64,000 nt of DNA from Candidatus Zhuqueibacterota bacterium (GCA_029262055.1 JAJDAD010000039.1:1-64000); one strand, 5' to 3'. Shown: positions 58,391 through 64,000, counted from the stretch's first letter. The notes: generated by a model from the letters alone, not told the origin. Made by a program: numbers and translations.

Positions 58391-58577
58391 CTAACGTCTG
58401 GCCCGGTTTTGGGAGTTCCATTCAAGAAGAGGTCAAAATAGGTTGCTTCTCTGAGATATGTTGTTTAATTTGGTTGGCAAGAGTCCATTTACCCAAAAAA
58501 GCTCGCCATTTACCCACCACTTAATTTCAAATCTAAAATCTTTATTTCTCAACACTACAAGAAAACCGGAGGTCCTT

Positions 58578-59591
58578 GTGGAAGTAGAAAGCATAAGTAC
58601 TTTAGCAGATAGTCGTTTGAGGGTCAAAACCTCTCTTAAAGATAGTTCGGTACAACAATTTGAGACTGATGTATTCTACGGTTTGACATCAAAGCCCAAG
58701 CGACTATCGCCGAAGTACTTTTATGATGAGGAGGGGTCAAAGCTGTTTGAGGAGATCTGTGACCTGCCGGAATACTATCCGACTCGCACCGAACATTCAA
58801 TCATTGAAGCACGTACCCCGGACATTGCCGAACTGGCTGGCCCTGAAGCTGTCCTGATCGAGTTTGGCAGCGGTAGCTCGACGAAGACACGGGCGATAAT
58901 CGAGGCCTTTCTGGCCCGCTTTGGACGTTTGCACTACATCCCGGTTGACATTTCCAAAACAATGCTTACCGACAGTGCCCATGCTCTGTTGCGCAACTAT
59001 GAAAACCTGCGCGTAACCGGCGTGGTTTCCGACTATGTCACTGCTCTGCAGTTGCTCAATGACCAGAAGATAAAGAACAGGTTCATTATTTTTCTTGGTT
59101 CAAGCATCGGCAACTTCACAAAGAATGAAGCCCGGGATTTTCTCAGACGGGTCAGGGACACGATGCAGCCGAATGATCACTTCCTGCTCGGAATGGACAT
59201 GGTTAAGTCCGAAGAGACGCTGCTTGCTGCCTACGATGATGTCCAGGGAGTAACCGCGGCATTCAACATGAACCTGCTGACACGCATCAACAGAGAGTTG
59301 GGCGGCAGTTTTGACCTGACAAAGTTTCGCCACAAGATCCTGTTCAATCCTGAGGAGAGCAGAATTGAAATGCACCTGGAAAGCACGGTTAAGCAGGAAG
59401 TGGCTATCCATGGCATCAGCCGTACGATCAATTTTGAGCAGGGCGAAACCATCCATACCGAAAACTCTTACAAGTTCTCGAAGGAGCAAATTCGTACGAT
59501 GGTGCAGGCGTCCGGTTTCGAGTTGGAAAAAACATGGTATGATCAAAACGAATGGTTTAGCCTGAATGTGATGAAACCAGCTCCGCGCTGA
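58578..59591 (+). CDS. egtD: L-histidine N-alpha-methyltransferase (EgtD)
   Basis: EgtD trimethylates histidine with S-adenosylmethionine to give hercynine (histidine betaine), the first step of ergothioneine synthesis. The 337-residue protein matches the family: YGLTSKPKRLSPKYFYDEEG, DLPEYYPTRTEHSIIE, the SAM-binding IEFGSGSSTKTR, LGSSIGNF and the substrate-side RIEMHLES segment. The start is GTG at 58578 because GGAGG lies 5 bases upstream; a longer in-frame ATG at 58458 adds a 40-residue extension that is not family-like. No egtB-type sulfoxide synthase is seen in the window. The stop overlaps the following ABC gene (TGATG), so it is coupled to a betaine-type importer. Confidence 0.9.
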   Translation: MEVESISTLADSRLRVKTSLKDSSVQQFETDVFYGLTSKPKRLSPKYFYDEEGSKLFEEICDLPEYYPTRTEHSIIEARTPDIAELAGPEAVLIEFGSGSSTKTRAIIEAFLARFGRLHYIPVDISKTMLTDSAHALLRNYENLRVTGVVSDYVTALQLLNDQKIKNRFIIFLGSSIGNFTKNEARDFLRRVRDTMQPNDHFLLGMDMVKSEETLLAAYDDVQGVTAAFNMNLLTRINRELGGSFDLTKFRHKILFNPEESRIEMHLESTVKQEVAIHGISRTINFEQGETIHTENSYKFSKEQIRTMVQASGFELEKTWYDQNEWFSLNVMKPAPR

Positions 59592-60343
59592 TGAATCCCA
59601 TCGAATTCAACGAGGTTGCAAAGTCCTACCGGCAACATCAGGCGTTAAAAAACATCTCTTTATCGATCCCACCGGACTCGACCACGGCCATTATCGGCCC
59701 CAGCGGCAGCGGCAAATCAACCTGCCTGCAACTCATAAACGGACTTGTCAGGCCCGACCACGGAGAGGTCCAAGTCTTTCAGGAACGTATCGATTATGCA
59801 CAATTGCCAAAATTACGAAGGCGGATTGGGTACGCCGTGCAGGGCACCGGACTTTTCCCGCATCTGACTGTAGCCGGTAACATCTCGCTGCTGGCACAAA
59901 TGGAGGCATGGCCGGTTCCTGTAATCTCTGAGCGGGTGGCGGCCCTGATGGATTTGGTTGACCTGCCGGCGGCCTTTACCGGCAAATATCCGCACGAGTT
60001 GAGCGGCGGCGAGCAACAGCGGGTCGGACTGTGCCGGGCAATGATGCTGGACCCGCCCATCTTTTTGCTCGATGAACCGTTTGGTGCGCTCGACCCCATC
60101 ACGCGTGCTGAAATCCATATGGAATTTGAAAAATTGCAAAAAGCAGCATCCCGGACCATCGTGCTGGTGACGCATGACCTGCGGGAGGCGCTGAAACTTG
60201 CCGACCTGTTGGTGATCCTGAATCGTGGGGAAGTCGCGCAAATCGGAACACCGAAAGATATTCTGCGCGCGCCGGCGAGCGATTTCGTAGGAAAATTCAC
60301 TCACCTGCACCTGGCTGATGACGTTACCGGTCATGATTCGTAA
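59591..60343 (+). CDS. ABC transporter ATP-binding protein, osmoprotectant/betaine type
   Basis: This 250-residue ATPase has Walker A GPSGSGKST, Q-loop, signature LSGGEQQR, Walker B IFLLDEPFGALDP and the H-loop VTHD. Sequence style matches the OpuBA/OpuCA (ProV-like) group, but the C-terminal CBS domains of those proteins are lacking, as in many short OpuA-type ATPases. The ATG overlaps the egtD stop codon. It is followed by a gene for a fused binding protein-permease, so the three form a complete import module. Confidence 0.93.
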   Translation: MNPIEFNEVAKSYRQHQALKNISLSIPPDSTTAIIGPSGSGKSTCLQLINGLVRPDHGEVQVFQERIDYAQLPKLRRRIGYAVQGTGLFPHLTVAGNISLLAQMEAWPVPVISERVAALMDLVDLPAAFTGKYPHELSGGEQQRVGLCRAMMLDPPIFLLDEPFGALDPITRAEIHMEFEKLQKAASRTIVLVTHDLREALKLADLLVILNRGEVAQIGTPKDILRAPASDFVGKFTHLHLADDVTGHDS

Positions 60344-61841
60344 AATAGCCAACCTATTTGTGCTCGGCTGCTGTCTCTGTAACCTGACCGTTGCTTCTGC
60401 CCAGTCGGGGACAATACCCGCCGTTCGGATCGGTTGCAAGCACTTCAACGAAAACTATATCCTCGCCGAAATTATGGCCCAACTCCTGGAAGCGAGCGGG
60501 ATCGAGGTCGACCGCAAGTTTGGACTCGGTGGTACACTCATCTGCTACCAGGCGCTGGTCAACGCCGAAATCGACCTCTACCCGGAATACTCCGGAACCA
60601 TTGAGCAGGCAATCCTGAAGTTGCCGGAGAGGCTTTCCTTTGCGCAATTGCAGTCGAAGCTCGCCAGTGAGCACAATCTGGAGTTACTAGGGACCTTCGG
60701 TTTCAACAATACCTATGCCCTGACAACCCGGGCCCAGTTTGCCGCCGATGAAAATATCGGAAAGATCTCGGACCTGCGCACCAGAGCTGACGTCCGTTAC
60801 GGATTTAGCTACGAGTACATCGAGCGGGGTGACGGCTGGCGGGCCCTGGCAGGCGCCTATGGCCTCTCCGCGACCCCGGTCGGCATGGAGCACTCGCTGT
60901 CCTATCTGGCGCTCAACGATGGCAAAATCGATGTCATGGACGTTTACTCCACGGACGCGGAGATTCTCAAACACAATCTTGTCCTTCTGCAGGACGATTT
61001 GAATTTCTTCCCGATCTATCTGGCCGCGCCGCTAATGCGTGCGCAATTGCACCCCCGTGTCAGCGTGATTCTTGCGCAACTGGAAGACCTGATCGATGAG
61101 GCGGAGATGCAGCGGCTCAATGCTCTGGTTGTGATCGAGGGGAAATCCTTTGCCCAGGCTGCGGACCGCTTTCTGACCGAGCACGGCCTGAAGGATGAAA
61201 CCTCGCCAACATCGGAAAATCGTTGGCGAACGCTCGCGGCTAAGACTCTCACACATTTGATGCTGACCGGTGTTGCTCTTATCCTCGCTGTGCTGGTCGC
61301 CATTCCTGCGGGCATGTATATTTACAAACGCCCATCCATCTCAGGCCCGGTCATCTACATCGCCGGCTTGCTGCAAACCATTCCGTCACTTGCCCTGCTG
61401 GCGCTGATGATTCCTCTGCTGGGAATAGGTGTAAAACCCGCCCTGGTCGCGCTTTTCCTCTACGCGCTGCTGCCGATCTTGCGCAACACATTCACGGCCC
61501 TGATTTCACTCGACCCGGTTTTAAAAAAGGTGGCTGTCGGAATCGGGTTAACCGACTGGCAACGGTTGCGTTACATTGAGTTCCCGCTGGGACTGCCGAC
61601 TATTCTTGCGGGCGTCCGTACGGCTTCCGTGATTCTGATCGGGACGGCAACCATCGCCGCCTTTATCGGCGCCGGTGGACTTGGGGAGTACATCGTGACC
61701 GGGCTATCCCTGAATGATCCGTACTTGATCATGTGGGGAGCCATTCCCGCCGCCCTACTTGCCATTGTGGTGGAGCTGCTTTTTGAGCTGCTGGAACGCC
61801 TGGTTGTGCCGAAGCATCTGCTGCAAAACACGCCTTCCTGA
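60333..61841 (+). CDS. Fused substrate-binding protein and permease of a betaine-type ABC importer
   Basis: This protein of about 502 residues has an N-terminal signal peptide, then an OpuAC-like binding domain (about residues 25-285; RIGCKHFNENYILAE, GGTLICYQALVNAEIDLYPEY, DVMDVYSTDAEIL), and a C-terminal permease with about five or six helices (from residue 305) and an EAA loop (GIGLTDWQRLRYIEFPLGLPT). Fused permease-binding proteins of the Opu/EgtU class are known, usually permease first. Here the order is binding domain first. The short overlap with the ATPase gene and the coupling to egtD suggest that the substrate is a histidine-derived betaine or a related quaternary amine. The substrate is inferred. 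Confidence 0.88.
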   Translation: MIRKIANLFVLGCCLCNLTVASAQSGTIPAVRIGCKHFNENYILAEIMAQLLEASGIEVDRKFGLGGTLICYQALVNAEIDLYPEYSGTIEQAILKLPERLSFAQLQSKLASEHNLELLGTFGFNNTYALTTRAQFAADENIGKISDLRTRADVRYGFSYEYIERGDGWRALAGAYGLSATPVGMEHSLSYLALNDGKIDVMDVYSTDAEILKHNLVLLQDDLNFFPIYLAAPLMRAQLHPRVSVILAQLEDLIDEAEMQRLNALVVIEGKSFAQAADRFLTEHGLKDETSPTSENRWRTLAAKTLTHLMLTGVALILAVLVAIPAGMYIYKRPSISGPVIYIAGLLQTIPSLALLALMIPLLGIGVKPALVALFLYALLPILRNTFTALISLDPVLKKVAVGIGLTDWQRLRYIEFPLGLPTILAGVRTASVILIGTATIAAFIGAGGLGEYIVTGLSLNDPYLIMWGAIPAALLAIVVELLFELLERLVVPKHLLQNTPS

Positions 61842-62045
61842 TTCTACATCCTGGGGTTGCCCCTGATCGAACAACTTCTTCTCCCTGCCTTTATTTTCAC
61901 TGATTTCAGGTCGATGTAGTAGAGATAGAGAACCCACAAAATCACGAAGGTGTGGGCGGTACTAGACTGACGAAAGTCATATTCAGTTCAAGTGAAACTG
62001 CTATTCAGACAACCGGGCAGATACGGTCTGTCCCTGCTTTGCTTT
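61842..62045 (+). other. Intergenic region, no gene
   Basis: These 204 bases separate the ABC permease fusion from the propeller sensor gene. I see no clear promoter or terminator. An in-frame GTG at 61992 could be an alternative start of the next gene. Confidence 0.3.
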
Positions 62046-64000
62046 ATGAAGTCGACATTGGCTATCATGTTGCTGGCCACACTCGCCTCAATATGTCCCG
62101 CGCAAAACCTGCACTTTTCAAACTACTCCACCGGAGATGGGCTGCCGCAATCCCAGATTCATTCAATCATTCAGGACCGGGGTGGCTACCTTTGGTTTGG
62201 GACGGGCAGCGGCGCTGCGCGATTCGATGGCATAGAATTTGAGATTTTTGACCAATCCAATGGTTTGCCACAGTTAGATTTTGTCTATTCTATGTTGGAA
62301 GACCGGGACGGGAATATTTGGTTTGGGACCTTTGGTGCAGGGGTTGTCCGTTTCGATCCGCAGGCCCCTCCGGGCAAGCGCTACACTCATTACGACCGCA
62401 CACGCGGATTTGCAGGCGATCGGGTTTTCGCAATATGTCAGGACCAACAGGGAAGCCTCTGGTTTGGGACAGACAGTTCCCGGGTTATCAAGCTGCAACA
62501 TGGAAAATTCGAAGCCATGCAGCTTGAGCGGCAAGGCGTCACTCAGGAAAACTCGATTCGGGCGATCGCGCAAGGTGCTGCTGGCCATCTTTGGTTCAGT
62601 GTCTATGGCAAAGGGCTGTACAATTTGTCAGATGACAATCTGGTTAAGTATACTGTGGCGGACGGCCTGCCGCACGCGGAGATTTTTTCGGTCATTGTCG
62701 ACACCAAAGACGTGTTATGGCTTGGAAGTCGAAGCGGCCTCACATCTCTCAAGCGAACAGCGTCGGGCGATGTTCTCATCAGGACGTTCACTGTGCAGGA
62801 CGGATTGCCATCCAACACGGTCTACTCGATCGCGCTCGATGATAAGGGAACCATGTGGCTGGGGACCAGAAATGGCGTCAGCAGGTTTGATCAAAATGGT
62901 TTCAAGACCTATCGGGTGGAAAACGGACTGGTCAACAATCGCGTCATCAGTGTCATGGTAGACCGGGAAAACCTGCCGTGGCTGGGTACTGTCGGTGGAA
63001 TCAGCAAGTTGGCGCAGGAGAAGTTTGAGAACTTCACAATGAAGCACGGATTGCCTGAGAACTACATCTCCGCGGTCTATGAAGACTCTAAAGACGATAT
63101 ATGGTTCGGCACGATTGGGCGCGGTATTGGCATTTTGAGAAATGGTCGATTCATACATGATTCCGCCCTTGACAGGATAGAGCATGGAGCTGTTCGCGCA
63201 ATTCTTGAAGACAGTCACGGCAACCATTGGTTTGGCACCCGCTTCGGGTTGGTCAGGCGTTCTCAGAGCGGAGTTGCGGTCTACCGCAAGTCGGACGGAC
63301 TCCCCGGTGAATACATTAGAGACATAGCTCAGGACTCAGAAGGCCGGCTATGGCTTGCCACTGAACACGGTGTATGCTTTTTCAATCCCGGCATCGAGCA
63401 CCCACAGTTTGAAGTCTTTGGTACAACACAAGACATCGGCACGACCTCTGTTTGGGATGTTCTTGTTAGCAAAGACAACACGATTTGGTTTGCGACCAGC
63501 AGCAACGGGGTCTTTCGCCTTGACAGCGCCGGAGTTCGGCAGTTTACAGTGGCGAACGGACTCAGTGACAACAAGGTTTTCTGTGCGACGGAGGACGCTG
63601 GCGGCAATATTTGGTTTGGGACCAAGCGTGGGGCGACGCGCTTTGATGGGGCAGAGTTCACCGTATTGAGTAAAGACGACGGCCTGTCCGACAATTCTGT
63701 TTGGTCAATTCTGGCTGACAAAAAGGGTAACTTCTGGTTTGGCCACAATCGCGGCGTCGACCGATTCGATGGCCAGGCCTGGCAAAATTACAATTCGAAG
63801 AACGGGCTTGTTGGAGACGAGGCAAGCATCCATTCTATGTTGGTAGACCGAAACGATCATGTTTGGATCGGTACCAGCGCCGGTGTCACCAGATATGATC
63901 CGCAAAAAGAGCGTACCTCTACGGTTACTCCGATTGTGCACATAAACAAAATACACACAGCCTCATATACCGGCCCACCGCTGGACAGCCTTGAAATAGA
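62046..64000 (+). CDS. Two-component-regulator-propeller sensor protein (runs off the window)
   Basis: The frame is open from the ATG at 62046 to the end of the window (about 651 codons, no stop). The protein has a signal peptide (LAIMLLATLASICPAQ) and a run of about thirteen Reg_prop blades, each near 40 residues with the pattern DGLPxxxVxSIxxDxxGxxWxGTxxGVxRF (for example DGLPQSQIHSIIQD, NGLVNNRVISVMVD, DGLSDNSVWSILAD). The last residues (TPIVHINKIH) look like the join to a YYY domain. In this family a histidine kinase, or hybrid kinase, or a diguanylate cyclase often follows; its type is out of view. The start could also be the GTG at 61992. It is a larger relative of the propeller gene at 3706. 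Confidence 0.85.
   Translation, partial: MKSTLAIMLLATLASICPAQNLHFSNYSTGDGLPQSQIHSIIQDRGGYLWFGTGSGAARFDGIEFEIFDQSNGLPQLDFVYSMLEDRDGNIWFGTFGAGVVRFDPQAPPGKRYTHYDRTRGFAGDRVFAICQDQQGSLWFGTDSSRVIKLQHGKFEAMQLERQGVTQENSIRAIAQGAAGHLWFSVYGKGLYNLSDDNLVKYTVADGLPHAEIFSVIVDTKDVLWLGSRSGLTSLKRTASGDVLIRTFTVQDGLPSNTVYSIALDDKGTMWLGTRNGVSRFDQNGFKTYRVENGLVNNRVISVMVDRENLPWLGTVGGISKLAQEKFENFTMKHGLPENYISAVYEDSKDDIWFGTIGRGIGILRNGRFIHDSALDRIEHGAVRAILEDSHGNHWFGTRFGLVRRSQSGVAVYRKSDGLPGEYIRDIAQDSEGRLWLATEHGVCFFNPGIEHPQFEVFGTTQDIGTTSVWDVLVSKDNTIWFATSSNGVFRLDSAGVRQFTVANGLSDNKVFCATEDAGGNIWFGTKRGATRFDGAEFTVLSKDDGLSDNSVWSILADKKGNFWFGHNRGVDRFDGQAWQNYNSKNGLVGDEASIHSMLVDRNDHVWIGTSAGVTRYDPQKERTSTVTPIVHINKIHTASYTGPPLDSLEI

Follow-up and report, generated by a model that had tools for sequence, protein, structure and literature searches.

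In the window, a 64,000-nucleotide stretch of DNA from Candidatus Zhuqueibacterota bacterium (GCA_029262055.1 JAJDAD010000039.1:1-64000), the gene for the histidine methyltransferase EgtD lies in an operon with the two genes of an Opu-type ABC importer, and the unit which this importer forms with EgtD is real and conserved. The explanation that fits best, to which we give a probability of about 0.6, is that the operon ties the making of a betaine of the EgtD pathway to its uptake, ie that the importer is dedicated to such a compound in cells which also produce it. The most likely ligand would be what the pathway finally yields (ergothioneine, or, in the relatives with SenA, selenoneine), and the next most likely N-alpha-trimethylhistidine (hercynine, TMH).

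The known bacterial ergothioneine importers were presented as a host-scavenging route for non-producers (PMC9732360). The importer described here is of a related but distinct build and is wired to EgtD in producers over several phyla; the pairing spans different sulfur and selenium additions, one of them oxygen-independent, and the host belongs to a little-known, anaerobic bacterial lineage. The role of ergothioneine without oxygen, and that of ergothioneine or hercynine as a shared community metabolite, become a concrete question of binding and uptake. The egtD-linked importer could also serve as a marker for the re-annotation of some genes now named 'glycine betaine ABC transporter'.

The egtD operon

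The set consists of egtD, an Opu-type ATPase gene and a gene for a substrate-binding domain (SBD) fused to a permease, all on the plus strand, with the following features in the window:

58568-58573, plus strand: Shine-Dalgarno-like GGAGGT, 4 nt 5' of the egtD GTG start (from the sequence)
58578-59591, plus strand: egtD, L-histidine N-alpha-methyltransferase, 337 aa (TIGR03438, PF10017, PDB 4uy6, histidine-site residues)
59591-60343, plus strand: Opu/ProV-type ABC importer ATPase, 250 aa (PF00005; closest subfamily TIGR01186 proV)
60333-61841, plus strand: SBD-permease fusion, 502 aa, SBD first (PF04069 then PF00528)
60420-61193, plus strand: SBD of the fusion, residues ~30-287 (cage and ligand residues compared with EgtU)
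61221-61832, plus strand: permease domain of the fusion, residues ~297-500 (PF00528, hydropathy segments)

The egtD gene runs from a GTG at 58578 to a TGA stop ending at 59591. The ATG of the ATPase gene starts at the last base of that stop (TGATG, 59591), a 1-base overlap, and its TAA ends at 60343. The fusion starts at the ATG at 60333, or alternatively at an in-frame ATG at 60318, so that at least 11 bp are shared with the ATPase gene. The sequence-only reading had taken the overlapping genes to be one operon, and coordinates and gene families both agree with it; the same arrangement is kept in relatives, which rules out a chance arrangement. Co-transcription of the three genes is predicted from the overlaps. 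Promoter and terminator scans gave matches no more numerous than in shuffled sequence. The divergent gene 5' of egtD reads, from its sequence, as enolase. A two-component regulator propeller protein encoded on the same strand (61992-63998, cut at the window end) is probably a separate unit; since its gene does not begin until 150 bp 3' of the fusion, the operon appears to comprise three genes.

EgtD scored 396.9 bits with the equivalog model TIGR03438 (cut-off 290.9) and 388.5 with PF10017, and its best PDB match was M. smegmatis EgtD (4uy6, E=1.3e-65). The histidine-site residues Y67, N179, Y219, M265, E295 and S297 are every one conserved. Among them Y67, N179, Y219, E295 and S297 correspond to Tyr56, Asn166, Tyr206, Glu282 and Ser284, which hold histidine in EgtD structures (PMC8593015). 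With the cut-off passed and these residues present, the enzyme should yield TMH.

The chalcogen-inserting step

No egtB had been seen in the window, from which it was suggested that hercynine may be the last compound made. The lack of EgtB holds genome-wide (97% complete): the best match reached 120 bits against a cut-off of 360 and covered the FGE half only. The EgtB-like matches in this genome were rejected, being FGE domains in an NTPase or lipoproteins, without the DinB half. A halt at hercynine does not stand, because an MES-type ergothioneine synthase is encoded elsewhere in the genome, on contig C26 (G000:C26:30428-33850; L129:5429-8851), unlinked to egtD. MES of Caldithrix abyssi (CaMES) joins a molybdopterin (metallopterin) module and a cysteine desulfurase in one protein of ~1136 aa (Beliaeva and Seebeck 2022, PMC9516567). 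The C26 protein has PF04879, PF00384, PF01568 and PF00266 in 1140 aa, ie the same fusion. Its C19/C22/C26/C52, C157 and K956 match C14/C17/C21/C48, C153 and K952 of CaMES, and C1078, C1101 and C1139 match C1074, C1097 and C1135, all at an offset of +4 or +5, so that the Fe4S4 site with its four cysteines, the cysteine that binds the metal, the PLP lysine and the cysteines of the sulfur relay are complete. With all functional residues of MES present, the pathway in the window's genome very probably reaches ergothioneine. The combination resembles the anaerobic pathway of C. abyssi in its EgtD with an intact histidine site and its complete MES; it differs from that pathway as published (PMC9516567) in that egtD is in an operon with an ABC importer and MES is unlinked (the two are linked in G138). 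A term search of that paper found no ABC importer described.

MES was also found in G024, G025, G026, G027 and G073, and the importer carriers with MES include, besides these and the window's genome (G000), G138, G218, G256, G287 and G317. The MES of G025 is cut off by a contig end. That of G024 (L133) is split into two overlapping frames and that of G073 (L192) has one in-frame TAG, either through sequencing error or through decay. Carriers with EgtB are G079-G081, G109, G216, G253, G256, G273 and G296. SenA, scoring over the NF041186 cut-off, is present in carriers G028, G005, G112, G128, G153 and G218; in G029 it was assigned by close likeness to G028. These seven genomes resemble the selenoneine cluster egtD-senABC in that the importer accompanies egtD and SenA, unlike the window's genome, from which SenA is absent. 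Full-length 'EgtB' proteins of relatives which scored below the cut-off proved to be SenA in the NF041186 test (loci L106, L107, L108, L168, L171, L200 and L201). SenB adjoins SenA in G028 and G005, with SelD next in G028; since G028, with senA-senB-selD, is of the same family as the window's genome, a change from sulfur to selenium seems to have taken place among close relatives. None of MES, EgtB and SenA was found in carriers G023 (70% complete), G044 and G045.

The rhodaneses read in the window's genome were MoeB/ThiF-like, MBL-rhodanese, SseA-like and of another single-domain type; among those read no match to EanB was seen, which is not a full exclusion. MES homologues with all functional residues occur in G068 (L190:4609-8007), G069 (L191:4494-7892) and G067, three genomes in which egtD and the importer are both absent. 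In G068 and G069 the homologue is followed by a gene resembling an ATP-grasp enzyme, and the substrate of the three homologues may differ.

The importer and its binding pocket

The ATPase matched PF00005; its best subfamily was TIGR01186 (proV), under the cut-off, and a match to the CBS domain was absent. In the fusion, a hydrophobic N-terminal segment, seen by hydropathy, precedes the SBD (OpuAC, PF04069, residues 31-283), and the permease domain follows (BPD_transp_1, PF00528, residues 322-494). EgtUBC of S. pneumoniae has the order TMD-SBD (PMC9732360), so the domain order here is reversed, a difference from EgtU which the sequence-only reading had noted correctly. EgtU systems (EgtUA and EgtUBC in S. 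pneumoniae and other Firmicutes, EgtU/EgtV in H. pylori) likewise have a separate ATPase and an SBD-permease fusion, and the SBD shares with theirs the subcluster F-III. Their hosts in PMC9732360 are non-producers, whereas the carriers here would produce the betaine with an EgtD of their own.

The closest solved relatives of the SBD were EgtU domains, both by sequence and by model. An AlphaFold model of the fusion (four sequences) had a pLDDT of 63 overall, with a usable SBD and a poor permease, and for this reason no pocket volume was derived from it. The SBD has an aromatic cage of Y86/Y128/Y205/Y229 with N126, the carboxylate ligands K36/T89/R165 and, on the imidazole side, E161. In the alignment Y341, Y419, Y443 and N339 of SpEgtUC correspond to Y128, Y205, Y229 and N126, ie the betaine cage is kept, and K242, T296, R379 and E375 to K36, T89, R165 and E161, ie the carboxylate ligands and the imidazole glutamate are kept as well; the SpEgtUC row was pieced together from HMMER alignment output, and K242-I243-G244 were positioned from the text of PMC9732360. 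The likeness to the EgtU pocket ends at the specificity residues. Of the residue roles described in PMC9732360, those of G244, F293 and Y337 are to set the affinity or specificity for ergothioneine, and here these positions are F38, Y86 and F124; the thione-contact residues I243 and T274 are likewise not conserved. The F38/Y86/F124 pattern is common to nearly the whole importer clade, including a member in an operon with MES. It is the pattern of the glycine-betaine ProX of A. fulgidus, which binds glycine and proline betaine and shares the K-x-F motif as well as the Tyr and Phe that stand in place of F293 and Y337, as compared over the N-terminal part of AfProX. ProX is a free binding protein, unlike the fusion here.

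The change G244F alone costs SpEgtU ~100-fold (PMC9732360), and SpEgtUC binds ergothioneine ~10,000-fold tighter than TMH. The EgtU of H. pylori (PDB 8dp7) is also an ergothioneine binder; in the alignment two of its three specificity sites are occupied by Tyr and Phe and the third by Ser, so that F38 is what chiefly stands against an EgtU-like mode. The importer falls outside EgtU by the published residue criteria, so that the EgtU label is not justified, but it may well work like EgtU.

Distribution and probable function of the importer

The phylum was sampled with 82 genomes, 16 of which have egtD. A full-length, SBD-first importer was present in 15 of the 16 and in none of the 66 without egtD (Fisher 1.6e-15; the genomes are related and were counted as independent, so this and the following p-values overstate independence and are a guide only). 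When the window's own family was left out the counts were 7/8 and 0/66 (Fisher 4.4e-9). A further sample of 306 bacterial genomes from other phyla had egtD in 36, the importer in 16 and the two together in 12, ie the importer was found in 12/36 egtD genomes against 4/270 without egtD (p = 1.5e-9), and 12/16 of its carriers have egtD, compared with a background of 12%. The sixteenth egtD genome of the phylum, G041, has an importer match (L099:5051-6607) that is OpuA-like and permease-first, with the SBD halves swapped relative to the ProX type; it is not an orthologue and was therefore left out of the importer count. The distribution is patchy inside genera and families: egtD, the importer and MES all occur in G073 but not one of them in its congener G072, and similar differences separate g43 from g41 and g42, g47 from g46 and g48, and g19 and g20 from g21. 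This patchiness argues for joint gain or loss of the importer and egtD on several occasions.

A maximum-likelihood tree placed nearly all the egtD-associated importers in one clade of 26 (support 96/95). The importer of G253 lies outside it, and that of G361, a genome without egtD, inside. A homologue on a Comamonas plasmid, within the clade in a quick second tree, has no egtD neighbour within 6 kb. A match on a Synechocystis plasmid was permease-first and was set aside, as were the archaeal loci L019-L024, which are unfused Opu systems without egtD. The G361 importer (L188:4206-7052), of the egtD clade, has a single-domain rhodanese gene divergent from it.

Contiguous egtD-ABC-importer genes were found in eight phylum genomes (G000, G023, G024, G025, G026, G028, G029 and G073) and, in other phyla, in G128 and G153. 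The order is ABC-importer-egtD in G005 and divergent in G045, and in G027 egtD and ABC are together with the importer on a different contig. Other phyla also provide ABC-importer-egtD-MES (G138) and ABC-importer-egtD-senA (G218), and in G112 egtD, senA, ABC and the SBD part of the importer share one contig, which ends there. At least five other lineages have egtD and the importer side by side. The functional link between EgtD and the importer, put forward from the window alone, is borne out by this repeated adjacency and by the co-occurrence in several phyla. No report of an egtD-importer linkage was found in the open-access literature searched, nor was one found of linkage to egtD for ProX or OpuB/OpuC/OpuF systems.

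In the proposed scheme EgtD would trimethylate histidine to TMH, which would then be sulfurised to ergothioneine by the MES-type metallopterin/cysteine-desulfurase enzyme of contig C26. The SBD, N-terminal to the permease, would catch a betaine of this pathway outside the membrane, and the Opu-type ABC system would pump it inward with ATP, import being its predicted direction; the cell would thereby both produce and recover the betaine. The importer accompanies egtD whether the chalcogen step is MES, EgtB or SenA, and because EgtD is the constant partner the ligand is likely to be TMH or a product of TMH. It travels with egtD in many producers, and these are therefore likely to take up the compound, or its precursor, as well as make it. 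Three points go against this explanation, namely the ProX-like F/Y/F residues, the unlinked MES in this genome and the 24/36 egtD genomes outside the phylum which have no SBD-first importer.

The first of these points speaks for the main rival, a general importer of osmoprotectants (glycine betaine, proline betaine, choline), in which case hercynine would be a further compatible solute and the operon would serve osmoadaptation. F38, Y86 and F124 match the A. fulgidus glycine-betaine ProX (PMC9732360), the OpuF proteins of Bacillus, which like the importer here fuse SBD and permease, take up compatible solutes (PMC8060640), and some members of the clade, such as that on the Comamonas plasmid, have no egtD neighbour. 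Such an importer should not track egtD, yet none of the 66 phylum genomes that lack egtD has it, and the presence of MES, EgtB or SenA in most carriers makes hercynine an intermediate and not an end point; we regard a general role as a minority possibility. It is very improbable that the genes adjoin by chance or hitchhiking and are functionally unrelated. The importer and egtD are indeed unlinked in G044, in G079-G081 and in several genomes of other phyla, but the co-occurrence holds even there, the adjacency recurs in different gene orders and phyla, and the reading frames overlap.

Within the preferred explanation, a dedicated importer of an EgtD-pathway betaine, the imported compound could be TMH itself, fed from outside to MES, EgtB or SenA as a supplement to EgtD. 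TMH is the sole metabolite common to all three routes found beside the importer, egtD adjoins the importer more often than the chalcogen enzymes do, and the residues of EgtU that contact the thione (I243, T274), together with G244, are not conserved. E. coli with CaMES also made more ergothioneine from supplied TMH than via its own EgtD (PMC9516567). If this were so, makers of ergothioneine or selenoneine would share or scavenge a trimethylated precursor for three unrelated routes; the open-access literature searched yielded no TMH transporter. We consider a TMH importer doubtful. In G361 and G224 the importer is present but EgtD, MES, EgtB and SenA are all missing, so that TMH would serve no obvious purpose there; this fits uptake of a finished product better. 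The egtD-less MES genomes G067-G069, whose need for TMH would be greatest, lack the importer.

A pair of lipoprotein-like genes, for an FGE-sulfatase-domain protein and a 284-aa protein without a Pfam match, flanks egtD or the importer in G026, G025 and G081, with the FGE part only in G023 (lipoprotein-like gene loci L016:1012-3511, L087:8086-10392, L085:4875-5757, L105:6943-9318 and L197:5478-7868). In G000 the two genes are together elsewhere, away from egtD.
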